From: Oscillospiraceae bacterium | GTDB taxonomy: Bacteria > Bacillota > Clostridia > Oscillospirales > Oscillospiraceae | DNA: 10,360 nt | Direction of reading: 5' to 3' | NCBI GenBank assembly: GCA_029065305.1 | Contig: JAIEIQ010000022.1 | Coordinates: forward strand, 1-10,360 | In this document: piece after piece, positions 1,948 through 10,360 of the stretch | Numbering within the stretch: the first letter of the stretch is position 1 | Layout: every line of letters starts with the position of its first letter | Notes under the pieces: model-generated | Databases searched by the model: none | Told to the model about the DNA's origin: nothing | Seen by the model: the letters and a program-made list of their open reading frames with translations, nothing else | Position numbers and translations under genes: made by a program

Positions 1948-2808
1948 TTAGGATGACTGTGACTCCGTGGATTTAAATCCGGGACGGGCTGTGAAACGCA
2001 GGCAGTCCTTGGGGCAGGCCTCCGCGCATTTGCCGCAGCGGATGCACTCCGGGGAACGGGAAATTTCCTGTAAGGACAGCGCCGCAGGGCAGGCTTTTTC
2101 GCAGGCCCCGCATCCAACGCAGCGCTCCCGATCCCAGTGCAGCTGTACCAGGCTGAAGCGGTTGAACCAGCCGTAAATCGCCCCCAGAGGACACAGGTAC
2201 TGGCAGAAGGGCCGAAAGACCTTGATGGACAGCAGGATAACCGCAAGCAGTATTCCCAGCTTCCAGAGAAACAGCCCGCCGGCCTGACTCCGCAGGGCCT
2301 CGTTTGCGCCCAGCAGGGGGAGGGCCCCCAGCAGCGTGCCGGAGGGGCAGAGGTATTTACAGAAGGCCGGGACCTTGGCGAAGCCTCCGAACAGAAACAT
2401 GGAGCCGACGCATACCAGAAGAATCAGCACCGCGTACTTTCCGTATTTCAGAACGCGGTGGAAGGGCAGCCGCTTCCTCTTTTTGAACAGGGGAATCTTG
2501 TACAGAAGGTCCTGAACAAGCCCAAAGGGGCACAGCCAGCCGCAGACAAAGCGGCCAAGTACGCTTCCAAACAGGAAAAAGAAGCCCAGCGCGGCGAAGG
2601 GGACCTGAAAGCCCTTCTGGTTCAGCAGTGCCTGCAGGGCTCCAATGGGACAGGCGGCCACGGCCCCGGGGCAGGAGTAGCAGTTGAGGCCGGGGACGCA
2701 GGCGTATTTCAGATTGCCCTTGTAGATCTTGCCGCTCAGAAAGCCGTACAGATATCCGTTTGTCACGATGGTATAGAGCAGCTGCGCTGTCAGCCGAAAT
2801 TTTTTCAT
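1948..2808 (-). CDS. NapH/MauN-like membrane polyferredoxin, 4Fe-4S binding protein
   Basis: 286-residue membrane protein with several Cys clusters. In order: an N-terminal CVPGLNCYSCPGA...CPIGALQ segment (C37, C43, C46, C53), GRFVCGWLCPFG (C89, C93), CKYLCPSG (C150, C154), CQYLCPLGA (C202, C206), then a ferredoxin domain with two 4Fe-4S motifs: CVGCGACEKACP (C230-C240) and CIRCGKCAEACP (C255-C265). Hydrophobic stretches at about 70-88, 124-142 and 177-195 are membrane helices. NapH/NosR/CcoG-type proteins move electrons between the membrane and a soluble or exported partner. It is the last gene of a minus-strand operon; its ATG lies 3 bases after the TGA of the CXXC peptide gene, with only GAGG immediately before it, so translational coupling is likely. 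I infer it feeds electrons to the CXXC peptide and the thioredoxin lipoprotein encoded upstream; the cytoplasmic donor is unknown. Confidence 0.92.
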   Translation of the reverse strand: MKKFRLTAQLLYTIVTNGYLYGFLSGKIYKGNLKYACVPGLNCYSCPGAVAACPIGALQALLNQKGFQVPFAALGFFFLFGSVLGRFVCGWLCPFGLVQDLLYKIPLFKKRKRLPFHRVLKYGKYAVLILLVCVGSMFLFGGFAKVPAFCKYLCPSGTLLGALPLLGANEALRSQAGGLFLWKLGILLAVILLSIKVFRPFCQYLCPLGAIYGWFNRFSLVQLHWDRERCVGCGACEKACPAALSLQEISRSPECIRCGKCAEACPKDCLRFTARPGFKSTESQSS

Positions 2809-2811
2809 ACC

Positions 2812-2964
2812 TCACCCAATCCCGATACACTCCAGGCAGATCATCACTGCCTTTCTCCATATGACGTCAAACTGACCCTGCGCGGCTCCCAGCCCCAGAA
2901 AGAGGACCCCGGCCAAAGCGCCCCCCGCCCAGGCGTACCGGCTGCTATTCCTCCAGAAGCTCAT
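2812..2964 (-). CDS. CD1871A-like CXXC motif-containing small membrane peptide (50 aa)
   Basis: 50-residue ORF found by reading the gap between the thioredoxin and Fe-S genes. It begins ATG AGC TTC TGG inside the 3' end of the thioredoxin gene (20-base overlap, another frame) and stops at TGA 3 bases before the Fe-S gene. It has a short basic start (MSFWRNSSR), one hydrophobic helix at about residues 11-29 (many Gly/Ala/Leu), then a C-terminal signature KAVMICLECIGIG whose CLEC is a CXXC pair. As I recall, this C-terminus matches the clostridial family named 'CD1871A family CXXC motif-containing protein', usually found next to TlpA-like and 4Fe-4S genes exactly as here. Gene order, overlaps and signature together make it a real gene. 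The function is not established; a membrane thiol/disulfide shuttle between its neighbours is inference. Confidence 0.88.
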   Translation of the reverse strand: MSFWRNSSRYAWAGGALAGVLFLGLGAAQGQFDVIWRKAVMICLECIGIG

Positions 2965-3556
2965 GAATCAGCTCCTCCCAGTCCGACTTTTCCGCAGCAC
3001 CGACAACGCCGCCCAGATATGCCCCCTCTCCATCAAAGAAGAAGGTGGTCGGTACGCCGCTCACGCTGGACAGGATCGCCTGGCCGATGGAGTCGTTGGC
3101 CAGCAGGTGGGGATAGTCCGCTCCGGTTTCCTGGACCAGGCTCTCCACAAGCGACAGGTCCTCGCCCTCCCGCACATCGCTGACAATGCCGATGAGCTGG
3201 AACTCCGACGGGTCGTATTCCGCCGCCAGCTCCCCAAGGCCCGGCATCTCCCGCAGGCAGGGATTGCAGTAGGTCGCCCAGACGTTGACCATGGTGAGCT
3301 TGGACTGGGTGAAGATCTCCTGTGAGACCGCGTTGCCCTCCAGGTCGGTTCCGTCAAAGGTGATGTAGATAGGGTCGGGCTCCTCCTCTGAGGGCGGCTC
3401 TTCCTGTGCGGACGGCTTCTCCTCGGGAGCGGTTCCGGCCGATGGCTGCGCTTTGGGGGCGGTCCCGACTGCGAGTTCACCGCCGTCCACGCCGCAGCCG
3501 TACAGCAGAAGCAGCGGCAGCAGCAGCCCTAACAAGATCTTGTACCGTTTGTTCAT
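2945..3556 (-). CDS. TlpA/ResA-like thioredoxin-fold lipoprotein
   Basis: 203-residue exported thiol-disulfide oxidoreductase. It has a basic N-terminus (MNKRYK), a Leu-rich signal helix and a lipobox-like LYGC (Cys21), so it is probably a lipoprotein on the outer face of the membrane. A Pro/Glu/Ser/Ala-rich linker (about 22-62) tethers a TlpA-type thioredoxin domain with VNVWATYCNPC (catalytic C97 and C100), EMPGL after it, and cis-Pro169 in GVPTTFF. Such proteins reduce or isomerise extracytoplasmic disulfides. Start choice: GGAGG at 3564-3568 is one base from an ATG at 3562 but seven from the ATG at 3556, so 3556 is preferred; the alternative adds Met-Asp. It is first in an operon with the CXXC peptide (20-bp overlap) and the Fe-S membrane protein. 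The Tyr before Gly-Cys in the lipobox is unusual, so lipidation is likely but not certain. Confidence 0.92.
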   Translation of the reverse strand: MNKRYKILLGLLLPLLLLYGCGVDGGELAVGTAPKAQPSAGTAPEEKPSAQEEPPSEEEPDPIYITFDGTDLEGNAVSQEIFTQSKLTMVNVWATYCNPCLREMPGLGELAAEYDPSEFQLIGIVSDVREGEDLSLVESLVQETGADYPHLLANDSIGQAILSSVSGVPTTFFFDGEGAYLGGVVGAAEKSDWEELIHELLEE

Positions 3557-3599
3557 GTCCATTCCTCCGTTTTACAGCTTTGTCTGTTTTGTGTGAGCC

Positions 3600-4818: not shown

Positions 4819-5253
4819 ATGGATATGACCAAGCAGGAGTATCAGGCCTATGTCCAGGCCCGGGCCAAGCAGTCCCCCCTTGTCAAAGACTGCGCTCTGG
4901 CCTTTCTCATCGGCGGTGTCATCTGCGTGCTGGGACAGATCATCATGGAGCTCTGGATGGCGGCGGGCCTGGAGAAAACCGACGCCGGGACCGCCACCTC
5001 CATCTCGCTGGTGTTTCTCTCCGTACTGCTGACCGGTCTGAACCTCTACAACAAGCTGGCCCGGTACGGCGGCGCCGGGACCTTGGTGCCCATCACCGGC
5101 TTTGCCAACGCGGTGGCCTCTCCGGCCATTGACTTTAAGAGCGAGGGCCTCGTTACCGGCATGGCGGCGAAGATGTTCACCGTGGCCGGGCCGGTCATTG
5201 TGTTCGGCGTAACCGCCAGCGTGATCTACGGTGTGGTGCTGATGCTGCTGTAG
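4819..5253 (+). CDS. spoVAC: Stage V sporulation protein AC (SpoVAC)
   Basis: 144-residue integral membrane protein, close to the usual SpoVAC length of about 150. It has a short hydrophilic N-terminus, a LVKDCALAFLIGGVICVLGQ segment (residues 21-40), a helix at about 61-75 followed by YNKLARYGGAG, and the highly conserved core LVPITGFANAVASPAIDFKS (89-108), then GMAAKMFTVAGPVIVFG. In Bacillus, SpoVAC is part of the SpoVA inner-membrane channel that moves calcium-dipicolinate into the forespore and releases it at germination, and it behaves as a mechanosensitive channel. AAAGGAG, nine bases before the ATG, sets the start. The gene is usually followed by spoVAD and spoVAE; here it stands alone, with its own sigma-G-like promoter and a strong terminator 11 bases after the stop. 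Confidence 0.95.
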   Translation: MDMTKQEYQAYVQARAKQSPLVKDCALAFLIGGVICVLGQIIMELWMAAGLEKTDAGTATSISLVFLSVLLTGLNLYNKLARYGGAGTLVPITGFANAVASPAIDFKSEGLVTGMAAKMFTVAGPVIVFGVTASVIYGVVLMLL

Positions 5254-6669: not shown

Positions 6670-6684
6670 ACACCGAAGCAAACT

Positions 6685-6729
6685 ACAGCGGACGCTGCCT
6701 CCCCGGCGGCGTCCGCTGTGTTTTGTTTT
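6685..6729 (+). terminator. Intrinsic terminator of the glycosyltransferase gene
   Basis: 15-bp stem (6685-6699 with 6705-6719, one G-U wobble), loop TCCCC, followed by GTTTTGTTTT. It lies 15 bases after the stop. No U tract on the minus strand, so it serves mainly the plus-strand gene. Confidence 0.88.
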
Positions 6730-6752
6730 GGAATATATTCTTCAGCCCGCCG

Positions 6753-8882
6753 TCACACCTTATCCACGCTCCACACCAGCGGGAACAGGGGCGCGGCCCA
6801 CAGAAGCATATAGATCAGCAGGTTCACCGGCGTGAGGGAGGCGAAGCTGCCCAAGAAGGTGAGGTAGAACCCCAGCAGCACCCCGCACACGCTGCCCAGG
6901 ATGCTCAGCAGGTTTCCGGCCCGCACAGTCTGGCAGAGCCGGCGGCTCCCGGCGGACAGCTCCACCAGATGGATGATCCCCTCCCGGTAGAGGATGCCGT
7001 TGGGCTCTCCCCCCTCCCGGTCCGGCTCGGAGAGGGCCAGCCGCTCCTCCAGCTCCAGCAGCTCCGCCCCGGCGTCCGTGCCGAAGCGGGTCCGCAGCAG
7101 CCTGGGCGTAATATTTCCGTCCCGGGTAGCCAGCCGCAGCCGCAGGCCCGACCGTGCGGCGGTGCGCAGGGCGCTCTCCACCGGCTCCGCGGCGGTGTAC
7201 TTGATGGAGAACAGCGCCGTCAGCTCCCCGTCCACCGACAGGCACACGCAGGTCTTGGCGGGCATACTGGCCGGCAGGCGCACCGCCTGCCGCCGCATGA
7301 ACACCGGCGGGCCCAGCAGCACCGTCTCCCCGTGGATGATGCCCCCCAGGCCCCCGCCATCGTGGATGTGGAAGTTGTCCACACTCTGGGGGGACAGGTG
7401 TTCCCGCTGGACGGCGTCCCCGAAGATACGGCCCATGAGGCCGCCCCCCAGGGTAGCCAGTCCGGCGGCGTAGGAGAGGGCACGGCCCCGCTCCTCGCTG
7501 AAGAGCTTCACACCGGACAGGCCCGCGCAGCCCGGGGGAAACAGGTCCCCGTCGGAGGCCACCACCTGCCGGGCGGCGGCCAGCACCGAGGCCCCGTAGT
7601 GGCCCGCCACAGCGCCGCCTCCCCGCGCCAGCCGCGCCGCCAGCCGCCCGAAGGGCACGGCGAAGGCCAGCGGGAAGGCCAGACCGGCGGCGGCACACAG
7701 CGTCACCGACCAGCACCACAGAAGGTCCTGCCCCCGCCCCTGCCCGACGGAGGAGAGGAGGGCGAACACCAGGGACGCGGCGCACAGCACCGGCAGCAGC
7801 AGCCTCTGCCACTGGCTGGCGGTGTCCTCCATACACGCACGGGTGTAAAAACCCAGCAGGGAGCCCTTGCCCTTGGCTGTGCCGTGGGGGCAGACGTCGG
7901 CCACCCAGCCGGGCCGGCCCAGGGCGGCGGTGCGGAAGCTCTCCCACATGCCCCGGTGAAATCCCTTGAGGCCCCACAGGGCGAACACGGCGGACACAGC
8001 CGCCACGCCCCCCAGAGGCGGGGCCTCCAGCCGGTTGGCAAGGAGCAGGAGGGTGATCTCGTCAAGCATGGTCACAAGGTTGGCCAGCGCCGCCGTTCCG
8101 GCCAGAGTGACGCTCCCCTCCCGCAGGCCCTCCAGGGCCGCGCGGAACACGGGCCAGGCCAGGGCGCAGGCAATCGCCTGGGGGATAAGCACGCAGATGG
8201 CGGCGTTGTCGGCGCTGGCGCTGAAAAAGGGCACTGTCCGCCCCATCCGCTCCAGCGCCCAGGGGATCCACAGCAGCAGAACCACCGCCCCGGAGAGGAT
8301 CAGGCTCCTCCGGCAGGCAAAGTACCGCCGGCGGTGCCAGGCGGCGGCATCCTGGGCGGGGGGCTCCTCCTCCACCGGCGGGAGGCTCTGGCGGGGGGAG
8401 GGCTCCCGGCGGGCGGCGCGCTTGCGCTGGGCCTTCTCCAGCCGCTGCCGCCACTTCTCCCGGGCCCGCTCCTGGTCGCCCTTCACCGCGTCCACGGTGC
8501 TGGCTACGATGTCCTCCATGGTGACGGGGGACTCCTCCTCCGGCGGCTGCTCCCCGGAGGCCCCTGCCTCCATCCACTGGGTGCCGATGAATGCGGAGAG
8601 ATCCTGCTCCTCCGGCCCACTGTCCTCCTCCGGCTCCGGCGGAGAAACGGCCTCCGGCTCCTCCGCCGGCTGCTCCGGGGCCGGAGGGGCTTCCGCCGCC
8701 GGTGCCGGCGCGGGCGCTTCCTCCGGCGGGGCGGGGGCCCTGGCGGAGGAGCTGTACTCGGCCAGGATGTCATCCAGGCTGTAATCCCGCCCCTTCTCCG
8801 GGTCCACCCCCAGAAGCAGCCGCTGGGTGTCCATCAGGCCGCTGTCATTTTCAAATGGAATCTGGTCGTTTTTATCGGTCAT
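6753..8882 (-). CDS. Degenerate P1B-type ATPase-like membrane protein (probable pseudo-enzyme)
   Basis: 709 residues. The N-terminal 190 are cytoplasmic and disordered: an acidic start with GRDYSLDDILAEY (31-43), long Pro/Glu/Ala tracts (about 46-118), then a basic coiled segment (135-160). The remainder resembles a heavy-metal P-type ATPase. LCAAAGLAFPLA (395-406) aligns with the membrane CPCALGLATP motif, ARGGGAVAGHYGASVLAAAR with the stretch leading to the phosphorylation site, GETVLLGPPVFMRR (518-531) and DGELTALFSIKY (551-562) with the nucleotide and P domains, and two final helices (about 655-678, 683-704) with the C-terminal pair. The catalytic signatures are gone: DGDLFPPG (444-451) stands where DKTGTLTxG should be, ATRDGN replaces TGDN, and no GDGxND or TGE is seen. 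It probably does not pump by phosphorylation. It sits 39 bases after rlmB on the same strand, AAGGA precedes the ATG. Function unknown; a regulatory or scaffold role is inference. Confidence 0.8.
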   Translation of the reverse strand: MTDKNDQIPFENDSGLMDTQRLLLGVDPEKGRDYSLDDILAEYSSSARAPAPPEEAPAPAPAAEAPPAPEQPAEEPEAVSPPEPEEDSGPEEQDLSAFIGTQWMEAGASGEQPPEEESPVTMEDIVASTVDAVKGDQERAREKWRQRLEKAQRKRAARREPSPRQSLPPVEEEPPAQDAAAWHRRRYFACRRSLILSGAVVLLLWIPWALERMGRTVPFFSASADNAAICVLIPQAIACALAWPVFRAALEGLREGSVTLAGTAALANLVTMLDEITLLLLANRLEAPPLGGVAAVSAVFALWGLKGFHRGMWESFRTAALGRPGWVADVCPHGTAKGKGSLLGFYTRACMEDTASQWQRLLLPVLCAASLVFALLSSVGQGRGQDLLWCWSVTLCAAAGLAFPLAFAVPFGRLAARLARGGGAVAGHYGASVLAAARQVVASDGDLFPPGCAGLSGVKLFSEERGRALSYAAGLATLGGGLMGRIFGDAVQREHLSPQSVDNFHIHDGGGLGGIIHGETVLLGPPVFMRRQAVRLPASMPAKTCVCLSVDGELTALFSIKYTAAEPVESALRTAARSGLRLRLATRDGNITPRLLRTRFGTDAGAELLELEERLALSEPDREGGEPNGILYREGIIHLVELSAGSRRLCQTVRAGNLLSILGSVCGVLLGFYLTFLGSFASLTPVNLLIYMLLWAAPLFPLVWSVDKV

Positions 8883-8898
8883 ACAATTCCTTCTTTTG

Positions 8899-8916
8899 CC
8901 GGGGCCACACCCCCGG
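8899..8916 (-). other. Small intergenic hairpin between rlmB and the P-type ATPase-like gene
   Basis: CCGGGG (8899-8904) and CCCCGG (8911-8916) pair around six bases. No U tract follows on the minus strand, so it is unlikely to be a full terminator; it may lower read-through or protect the upstream message. Confidence 0.4.
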
Positions 8917-8921
8917 GACGT

Positions 8922-9683
8922 TTATCCCGCCATCCTCTGCCGCAGAGCCTCATAGAGCAGCACGGCGGCGGCGGCGGACGCGTTGAGGGAGGAGATCCGC
9001 CCCTTCATGGGGATGCGCACCAGAAAGTCGCAGCTCTCCTCCACCAGGCGGCTCATGCCGTCCCCCTCGCTGCCGATAACCACGGCGGCAGGGAGTGTCC
9101 AGTCCGCCTCCCACAGGGAGACGGAGCCGCCGGCGGCGGCGCCGAACACCCAGATATTCCGCTTCTTCAAATCCTTCAGCAGGGCGGGCAGGTTGGGCAC
9201 CCGGGCCACCGGCAGGTGGCTCACCGCCCCGGCGCTGGTCTTGGCGACCACGGCGGTGAGCCCGGCGCTGCGGCGCTTGGGGATGATCACGCCGTGGGCC
9301 CCCACGCACTCGGCGGTGCGGATGACGGCCCCCAGGTTGTGGGGGTCGGAAATCTCGTCGCAGATCACCAGCAGGGGCGCCTCCCCCCGCTCCTCCGCCA
9401 GGCGGAGCATATCCTCCACAGAGGCGTACGCGGCGGCGGCGGCTACGGCGATGACACCCTGGTGGCTGTGGGTTTCGCTCATGGCGTCCAGCTTCCGCCG
9501 GTCCGCCTCCGCCACCACCACACCGACCCCCTTGGCCTGGGCGATGAGGCGGGAGAGGGTGCGGTCGGTCTCGCCCCTGGCTACGTAGAGCTTGTCGATG
9601 GCCCGTCCGGCCCGGAGGGCCTCCGCCACCGCGTTGCGGCCCTCAATCAGGGTCTCGGCGGGCTGCTGTTCTCTCTCTTTCAT
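8922..9683 (-). CDS. rlmB: 23S rRNA (guanosine-2'-O-)-methyltransferase RlmB (TrmH/SPOUT family)
   Basis: 253 residues, the normal length for RlmB, which methylates the 2'-OH of G2251 (E. coli numbering) in the 23S rRNA peptidyl-transferase loop using S-adenosylmethionine. An N-terminal substrate-binding domain (TLIEGRNAVAEALRAG, residues 11-26) is followed by the SPOUT knot domain with its three motifs: DEISDPHNLGAVIRTAECVG (109-128, with N116 and catalytic R122), VIGSEGDGMSRL (202-213) and IPMKGRISSLNASAAAAVLL (224-243, with N234). Motif 3 reads SLNAS rather than the commoner SLNVS, a mild change. GAGGAG, eight bases before the ATG, sets the start, and a TATAAT box lies upstream. The related TrmH-family tRNA methyltransferases are an alternative, but the N-terminal domain favours RlmB. 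First gene of a likely two-gene unit with the P-type ATPase-like gene; divergent from ftsH. Confidence 0.95.
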   Translation of the reverse strand: MKEREQQPAETLIEGRNAVAEALRAGRAIDKLYVARGETDRTLSRLIAQAKGVGVVVAEADRRKLDAMSETHSHQGVIAVAAAAAYASVEDMLRLAEERGEAPLLVICDEISDPHNLGAVIRTAECVGAHGVIIPKRRSAGLTAVVAKTSAGAVSHLPVARVPNLPALLKDLKKRNIWVFGAAAGGSVSLWEADWTLPAAVVIGSEGDGMSRLVEESCDFLVRIPMKGRISSLNASAAAAVLLYEALRQRMAG

Positions 9684-9718
9684 GCAAATTGCTCCTCACA
9701 TCGAAAACATGTCAAACT

Positions 9719-9748
9719 ATTATAGCACACATAGGGGCCTGTGCGGAA
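9719..9748 (-). promoter_or_regulatory. Promoter of rlmB
   Basis: A perfect TATAAT lies at 9719-9724 on the minus strand. The best -35 is TTCCGC (9743-9748) with an 18-base spacer, a weak match. The start would be near 9712, leaving a leader of about 28 bases. Confidence 0.6.
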
Positions 9749-9754
9749 GGGGTA

Positions 9755-9775
9755 TTCACAGAAATTTCACAGAAA
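9755..9775. repeat. Tandem 10-mer repeat between rlmB and ftsH, possible response-regulator box
   Basis: TTCACAGAAA occurs at 9755-9764 and 9766-9775, 11 bases apart. On the other strand this reads TGTGAA-N5-TGTGAA, the layout of OmpR-family boxes and close to the WalR pattern TGTWAH-N5-TGTWAH except for G at position 4. It lies just behind the -35 regions of both divergent promoters. Confidence 0.45.
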
Positions 9776-9790
9776 ATCTATACGCAGTTC

Positions 9791-9819
9791 TTGTGACTTC
9801 CCCGATTTTGTGCTACCAT
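9791..9819 (+). promoter_or_regulatory. Promoter of ftsH
   Basis: TTGTGA (9791-9796) and TACCAT (9814-9819) are 17 bases apart; each matches the sigma-A consensus at 4 of 6 positions. The start would be near 9826. The leader then holds a hairpin (9833-9840 with 9847-9855, one bulged base) before the ribosome binding site AAGGAG (9863-9868). Confidence 0.55.
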
Positions 9820-9874
9820 GCTGGATAGACGGACCGCGGGGGTACACCCGCTGGTGGGATAGAAGGAGAAAACC

Positions 9875-10360
9875 ATGAGTGACAACCGTAACAATCAGAA
9901 CAACCAGAACAACAATAACAAAAACAATAAGCGCCTCAACGGCCTCTTCGTCCTCATCGCCTGGACGGTGGGGCTGACCATCCTGATGAACTACTTCTCC
10001 GCCTGGAGCGCGCAGACCAAAAACGCCGCTGTCACCCATGAGATCATGTACAGCCAGCTCAAGGAGATGGTGAAGGCGGACCAGGTGGAGAAGGTGGTCT
10101 TTGCCGACGGAATGATCGAGATCACCCCGGTGGAGGGCTTCGTCTACAAGGAGACCGCCGAGGACGGCACGGAGGCGGCCTATCCGGAGGATGTGAAGCT
10201 CTTCACCATGCAGATGGGGGCCTACGGCACGGACCTGACCGAGCTGCTCGATGAGCACGGGGTGGACTATACCCACCCCTATGTGCCGGAGATGAGCCCC
10301 ATTCTGGAGTTCATGATCTCGTACATTCTGCCGACCATCCTGCTGGTGGGCCTGTTTATG
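9875..10360 (+). CDS. ftsH: ATP-dependent zinc metalloprotease FtsH (N-terminal part, truncated by window edge)
   Basis: First 162 residues of FtsH, a membrane-anchored AAA+ protease that removes damaged membrane proteins and short-lived regulators. After an Asn/Gln-rich start (12 Asn in the first 22 residues) comes membrane helix 1 (about 23-42, LFVLIAWTVGLTILMNYFSA), then the extracytoplasmic FtsH domain beginning EIMYSQLKEMVKADQVEKVV with the typical 'YSxF/LxxxV...V..V' pattern, the GTDLTELLDEHGVDY stretch, and membrane helix 2 beginning ISYILPTILLVGLFM at the edge. The AAA module and the HEXXH protease site lie beyond the window. The start is set by AAGGAG, 6 bases before the ATG. The frame stays open to the last base. 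The family assignment is firm even without the catalytic part. Confidence 0.93.
   Translation, partial: MSDNRNNQNNQNNNNKNNKRLNGLFVLIAWTVGLTILMNYFSAWSAQTKNAAVTHEIMYSQLKEMVKADQVEKVVFADGMIEITPVEGFVYKETAEDGTEAAYPEDVKLFTMQMGAYGTDLTELLDEHGVDYTHPYVPEMSPILEFMISYILPTILLVGLFM

Follow-up and report, generated by a model that had tools for sequence, protein, structure and literature searches.

What does a protein with the layout of a P1B heavy-metal ATPase do once the residues that drive such a pump are gone? The question is raised by a gene on the minus strand of a 10,360-nucleotide contig (JAIEIQ010000022.1, assembly GCA_029065305.1) from an Oscillospiraceae bacterium; this whole stretch of DNA is referred to as the window. 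The original prediction, made from the sequence alone, described a P1B-ATPase-like membrane protein without catalytic motifs and suggested a role as sensor, scaffold or regulator, which is plausible judging from sequence. Our analysis indicates that the gene product is very probably a P1B-ATPase-derived pseudoenzyme under selection, that is, a selected dead pump. The preferred reading, that this pseudoenzyme is retained across the order Oscillospirales and works as a membrane scaffold or sensor and not as a transporter, is given a probability of roughly 0.6 as a whole. The frame is intact over its 709 codons and has a good ribosome-binding site, as predicted, and lies on the minus strand, which had not been stated.

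6753..8882, minus strand: pseudo-P1B-ATPase gene, 709 codons plus stop, open frame, with order-wide homologues
8888..8892, minus strand: ribosome-binding site AAGGA, 5 nt upstream of the ATG (direct sequence reading)

Both profile and structure comparisons match residues 181–709 to P1B ATPases. This agrees with the assignment of the last ~520 residues to that class, for which a structural comparison with P-type ATPases had been set as a check beforehand. Helices MA, MB and M1–M6 and the P and N domains of the P-type fold are all present by prediction and profile. General protein families recover little of this. No Pfam family matches the window protein at E ≤ 0.01, and Pfam gave merely two single matches (Extensin_1 and Trp_Tyr_perm) on 42 family members. 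The NCBIfam CopA model matches residues 457–598 weakly (E 7.3e-6, far under the model cut-off). The ATPase-like part is laid out as follows.

7926..8342, minus strand: residues 181–319, helices MA, MB, M1 and M2 (AlphaFold2 helices; P1B alignment)
7824..7925, minus strand: residues 320–353, stub replacing the actuator (A) domain, one beta hairpin (alignment, AlphaFold2, distant loci)
7623..7823, minus strand: residues 354–420, helices M3 and M4, CPC metal motif absent (AlphaFold2; family alignment)
7530..7556, minus strand: residues 443–451, rebuilt phosphorylation loop S-D-G-D-L-F-P-P-G (family conservation; hhalign register)
7194..7529, minus strand: residues 452–563, N (nucleotide-binding-like) domain; His-Pro lost, G511 and G524 kept, hinge Asp replaced by Y562 (structure match, family alignment, hhalign)
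6978..7193, minus strand: residues 564–635, second half of the P domain, truncated, GDGxND segment absent (profile alignment, AlphaFold2, hhalign)
7104..7124, minus strand: residues 587–593, RDGNITP at the TGDN position (family conservation)
6756..6977, minus strand: residues 636–709, helices M5 and M6 (AlphaFold2; structure match)

The catalytic motifs are missing uniformly across homologues, as anticipated. Columns were counted over 115 distinct family proteins, with second copies (L056–L070) and the window's row L001 left out; proteins identical to another in the last 300 residues had been removed (135 to 115), and the window protein was kept. DKTGT occurs in none of the 115, in none of 20 further distant members, and in 16 of 16 P1B ATPases, so a search for DKTGT-keeping homologues among 135 distinct family proteins (window included) returned none. 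The register of the active site was taken from a local hhalign alignment of the P/N region (E 1.2e-20). A first hhalign register placed the phospho-Asp one residue earlier, at A442, and was dropped for the later register at S443, because the strand and the downstream P-x-G both fit it. The window therefore reads SDGDL at the place of DKTGT; the predicted replacement by DGDLFPPG was right about the loss and is corrected to begin at S443. GDGxND is likewise absent, as predicted (0/115 and 0/20, vs 16/16 P1B), and both the Lys motif and the GDGxND segment fall within a part that is deleted in profile alignments.

The lack of TGE, also predicted, follows from the loss of the actuator domain: a stub of ~27 residues, with a predicted hairpin at 326–339, stands where P1B ATPases have ~105 residues (profile alignment). 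TGE[SPA] strings found in 4 of the 115 proteins lie, by position, in the arm, the first helices or the N domain, and none lies in the stub. The membrane motif likened earlier to CPCALGLATP occupies the corresponding place in M4, but its residues read LCAAAGLAFP, with LCA where P1B has CPC. C-P-[CHS] is found in 4 of 115 proteins, and the window's own copy, at residue 331, is in the stub and not in M4. In the N domain, S-E-H-P of P1B aligns to G-G-G-L (hhalign), and His is found in the His-Pro column in 0 of 135 proteins. The G-x-G noted by the original prediction is present in the window, but its first Gly (G509) is Glu or Asp in 85/115 family proteins; the second (G511) is Gly in 113/115. The Asp of the DPPR-like hinge before the second half of the P domain aligns to Y562, and Tyr occupies this column in 130/135. 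TGDN is indeed altered toward TRDGN, yet the Asp of the TGD motif is retained (D588). With the actuator, the Mg site, the phosphorylation motif and the metal ligands gone, a pump cycle is hard to envisage, and the missing motifs suggest that the protein neither pumps ions nor turns over ATP.

The gene is nonetheless maintained. The ratio of nonsynonymous to synonymous substitution (dN/dS, NG86) between the window and its nearest relative is 0.091 for the core and 0.097 for rlmB, the neighbouring gene, which bears out the earlier argument against a pseudogene (0.09 vs 0.10). With this value, the structural match and the absence of DKTGT from homologues, the prediction withstood all three of the conditions named beforehand as refuting it. 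Over all 11 congeneric pairs the ratio is 0.04–0.39 for the core and 0.20–0.47 for the arm. Purifying selection and uniform loss of catalytic residues are thus found together, the combination that marks a pseudoenzyme. The family was matched at E ≤ 1e-40 in 241 of 247 genomes and 133 of 135 genera of the order, with a single match per genome in all of the 241 but two (G388 and G538). The six genomes without it gave only weak matches, which are ordinary pumps because the loci hold DKTGT (12/12 fetched loci, of which four belong to other genomes). A close rlmB is missing as well from five of the six, and in the sixth (G349) only 419 bases of contig remain beyond rlmB, so an assembly gap is as likely as true loss.

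Outside the order the signal drops. In a class sample of 292 genomes, all 14 from the window's own genome or the same order give matches at E ≤ 6.1e-82. Among the remaining 278 genomes, 267 reach no better than 1.5e-32 and 11 have no match; among the matches listed, the weak ones lie mostly over the P and N domains, as would be expected of ordinary P1B pumps. Four of 299 genomes in a phylum sample match at E ≤ 1e-45, all of them the window's own, of the same family or of the same order; up to three candidates were scored per genome, and kinship is listed for 20 of the 295 non-matching genomes. A single branch separates 74 family rows from 16 P1B ATPases of the same order (Shimodaira–Hasegawa-like approximate likelihood ratio test 100, quick tree). 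Of 58 order genomes, 57 have Spo0A_C; the exception, G534, carries the family all the same, an observation that tilts against a role confined to sporulation.

The sites that lost their catalytic residues have acquired conservation of their own. At the DKTGT place, D444 is conserved in 106, D446 in 104, F448 in 107, P449 in 109 and G451 in 96 of the 115 proteins; at the TGD place, D588 is conserved in 110 and N590 in 106. Because these replacement loops are conserved across the order, the pattern of loss goes beyond chance. The N domain ranks second of 13 segments in 75 family proteins (1.67 bits, after the P-loop at 1.76 and ahead of M4 at 1.53 and the others at 0.56–1.42), and it is the least conserved of five segments in the 16 P1B ATPases (2.19 bits vs 2.77–3.26); only the ranking is compared, as the sets are unequal in size and spread.

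Upstream of the membrane part is the acidic, proline-rich and disordered arm of the original prediction, with SLDDILAEY where it was expected.

8343..8882, minus strand: residues 1–180, N-terminal arm, acidic and proline-rich, largely disordered, with a basic helix at 122–158 (predicted structure)
8754..8780, minus strand: residues 35–43, short linear motif SLDDILAEY (sequence; strict motif in 98/129 family proteins)

In the predicted structure of the window arm, the predicted local distance difference test score is < 50 at residues 77–113, and helices span 14–23, 36–47 and 122–158. Arms were counted in the 129 family proteins whose membrane part is preceded by 110 residues or more, shorter ones being left out; they are 112–900 residues long with a median net charge of -27. 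The strict motif, [LV][DE][DESQA]IL[AKSQE][DE] within the first 120 residues, is present in 98 of these (shuffle mean 0.08), and a looser form in 111 (shuffle mean 0.98) and in 33 of 48 distant members (shuffle mean 0.7). L[DE]xIL[AS][DE][YF] occurs 119 times in 1.74 Mb of sequence from 177 sources. The listed family spans contain 116 of these occurrences, the remaining three are in the family genes of L087, L091 and L092, and none was found outside family genes in this sequence.

A dead pump that is kept in almost every sampled genome of its order, usually beside the same gene, has probably been put to a new use, for example in scaffolding or sensing. We favor a scaffold or sensor anchored in the membrane, because conservation persists in the N domain, in the rebuilt pocket and, for most members, in the short arm helix. 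The membrane part would anchor a cytoplasmic platform made of the N domain and a pocket rebuilt from D-x-D-[LI]-F-P and R-D-x-N-I-T-P. This platform may bind a partner or ligand, and the long acidic arm could recruit a further partner through its SLxxILAE(Y/F) helix.

Several observations weigh against this scaffold or sensor reading. Single-residue assignments in the active site are alignment-based, and one register was shifted by one residue. The strict arm motif is found in merely 20 of the 48 distant members. The most conserved single position is W695 in membrane helix M6, a residue for which a plain anchor would have no use. In-frame stops interrupt the matches of some genomes (one each in G057, G404, G435, G453, G514 and G383; two each in G042, G352, G363 and G396), and the family frame is split at L044 (G057) and L045 (G047); each case may stem from an error in assembly, from decay, or from a stop that lies ahead of the start. 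Finally, of the 115 proteins, 84 have Thr, 8 Ser, 7 Arg and 5 Asp at the phospho-Asp register, and Asp is found there in 17 of the 135 aligned proteins (the 115 plus 20 more distant). An Asp-phosphate remains conceivable in those 17, since the residue is still there.

Fifteen of these 17 fall in one 19-row clade (support 85), with L050 and L055 outside it, in a tree that leaves out named loci and rows < 400 residues and carries a long-branch warning. The rest of DKTGT and GDGxND are gone in this clade, and the loci inspected have a mere actuator stub. Judged from the alignment, most members of one clade still have this Asp, with the remainder of the motif lost, and in the clade of the window another residue stands in its place. 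Arms of 225–900 residues were seen in Asp-keeping distant members (L177–L181, L185–L187 and L189–L192), vs ~180 in the window.

The gene neighborhood bears on a different proposal, a translation-linked membrane receptor whose arm holds ribosomes, or a translation factor, at the membrane. In the window, rlmB lies directly upstream on the same strand, with a 39 nt gap.

8922..9683, minus strand: rlmB, 23S rRNA 2'-O-methyltransferase (Pfam SpoU_methylase and SpoU_sub_bind), also the neighbor in relatives
6684..6720, strand not assigned: GC-rich hairpin with T-run, between the pseudo-P1B-ATPase gene and a convergent glycosyltransferase (consensus scan only)

Of 137 loci offering over 900 nt of room, which are not independent as many share genomes, 131 show the same arrangement, as do all 20 further distant loci, so the gene does stay beside rlmB, a point singled out for checking beforehand. 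Among the six exceptions, the start as taken runs back into rlmB in L039 and L122, the frame is split in L044 and L045, a 647 nt gap separates the two genes in L172, and no rlmB was found in L034. The public record of Vescimonas fastidiosa has the order ftsH (divergent), rlmB, "hypothetical protein", the last two 10 nt apart; the family homologue of this species has the accession WP_212820792.1. Among 110 loci with room, 52 have a gene like elongation factor G (EF-G) no more than 600 nt downstream, and the copy in L064 matches the NCBIfam elongation factor G model NF009381. A basic helix (122–158) ahead of the membrane in the window's genus would also suit ribosome tethering. However, operon neighbors need not share a function, and the gene downstream in the window is the convergent glycosyltransferase, not EF-G. 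A ribosome-binding basic arm as a family-wide trait was rejected because a basic 40-residue stretch beats shuffles (≤ 5/100 reach it) in just 36/129 proteins. The translation receptor is judged unlikely.

Further features of these loci were observed. Positions 6747–10360 of the window are 96.3% identical in DNA to relative L097, and the similarity ends 6 nt beyond the stop codon of the gene. Beyond this breakpoint L097 runs into an EF-G-like gene and the window into the convergent glycosyltransferase, reflecting either a rearrangement or a chimeric contig. In V. fastidiosa (L223) the family gene shares an 861-kb replicon with ftsH, rlmB, groEL and groES; this replicon, whose deposited name is plasmid pMM35_01, looks like a second chromosome. 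Elsewhere the window encodes a SpoVAC/SpoVAEB sporulation membrane protein (4819–5253, Pfam E 1.8e-42), a membrane protein with several 4Fe-4S domains (1948–2808, minus strand, Pfam) and an adjoining redoxin-like protein whose N-terminus reads as lipoprotein-like (2945–3562, minus strand, Pfam). Rfam gave no match across the window at the gathering threshold.

The conserved pocket could alternatively be a residual phospho-switch or nucleotide sensor, signaling in the absence of any pumping either by binding ATP or a different phosphate compound or by becoming phosphorylated. D444, D446, D588 and N590 (104–110 of 115) sit at the old catalytic site, the N-domain fold is retained, and the 17 Asp keepers point the same way. 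We consider this somewhat more doubtful, given the His missing from all 135 proteins, the acidic residue at the first Gly of G-x-G in most, and the deletion of the Lys motif and the GDGxND segment. Set against motif I (D-x-D) of haloacid dehalogenase (HAD)-superfamily phosphatases, in which an Asp nucleophile closing strand 1 has a second Asp at +2, the D444-x-D446 pair is conserved but begins one residue past the nucleophile position by the hhalign register, and the GDGxND segment is deleted.

A regulatory partner of genuine P1B pumps in the same cell, acting through hetero-oligomers of like membrane folds, appears improbable. The fold is the same, and genuine P1B pumps accompany the family in 18 of 18 genomes tested, but P1B matches were also found in 14 of 14 control genomes (13 over the cut-off). 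This co-occurrence says little as such pumps are common anyway, and the constant neighbor is rlmB and not a P1B gene. It is highly improbable that the protein is a passive channel or carrier using its eight helices without ATP. All eight are kept and W695 lies in one of them, but the CPC ligands are gone, the sole charged residue in a membrane helix among the 45 most conserved positions is at 193 (Arg, 59%, near the start of MA), and the helices average 1.18–1.53 bits, under the N domain and P-loop. A decaying or mis-predicted gene, to which the stops and split frames in a few relatives might point, has a negligible chance in view of the order-wide retention, the low dN/dS and the new conserved motifs.

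A broader extension of the scaffold or sensor reading is tentative. A heavy-metal pump may have died near the root of the order and become a core membrane hub with a rebuilt ligand pocket and an arm recruiting a cytoplasmic machine, possibly ribosome-linked via rlmB; it would then be the first bacterial pseudo-P-type ATPase family as far as the literature was searched, and its gene a candidate for being essential in gut Oscillospirales. Few membrane machines have been studied as well as P-type ATPases. An actuator-less family that is near-universal among the genomes sampled from a gut-associated order, and called "hypothetical protein" in the one annotated record examined (V. fastidiosa), offers a test case for the turn from ion pump to scaffold or sensor, and the clades, one with the Asp and the others without it, provide a natural series for that change.

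Neither a bacterial pseudo-P-type ATPase nor the present family was described among the literature matches listed, which cover few subscription journals. In the parts available of a 2023 review of P-type ATPases, "pseudo" appears once, within a species name, and "inactive" nowhere (PMC10654040). The closest non-pump setting among the listed matches is a guanylyl cyclase with a P4-ATPase domain. The ATPase domain of the Plasmodium falciparum enzyme has a conserved catalytic Asp and an essential activity, according to the portion of that report available (PMC7858053).

Compared with known systems, the family shares the eight-helix plan, the N domain, the P-domain core and the order of elements with P1B heavy-metal ATPases (CopA/LpCopA, 4bbj and 3rfu; ATP7B; ZntA). 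It differs from them in its stub in place of the actuator and in being without DKTGT, GDGxND, CPC and His-Pro. Metal-binding domains with CxxC stand at the N-terminus of P1B pumps, and the family has its long acidic arm in their place. KdpB, the P1A ATPase of KdpFABC, retains the catalytic motifs of P-type ATPases and acts as part of a K+ complex; its structural score to the window protein is lower than those of the copper pumps. The apicomplexan and ciliate guanylyl cyclases, like the family, tie a P-type ATPase fold to a signaling use, but they are eukaryotic and their ATPase domain is of the P4 type. Pseudoenzymes such as pseudokinases are kept by selection with a conserved fold and lost catalysis, and in these respects the family resembles them.
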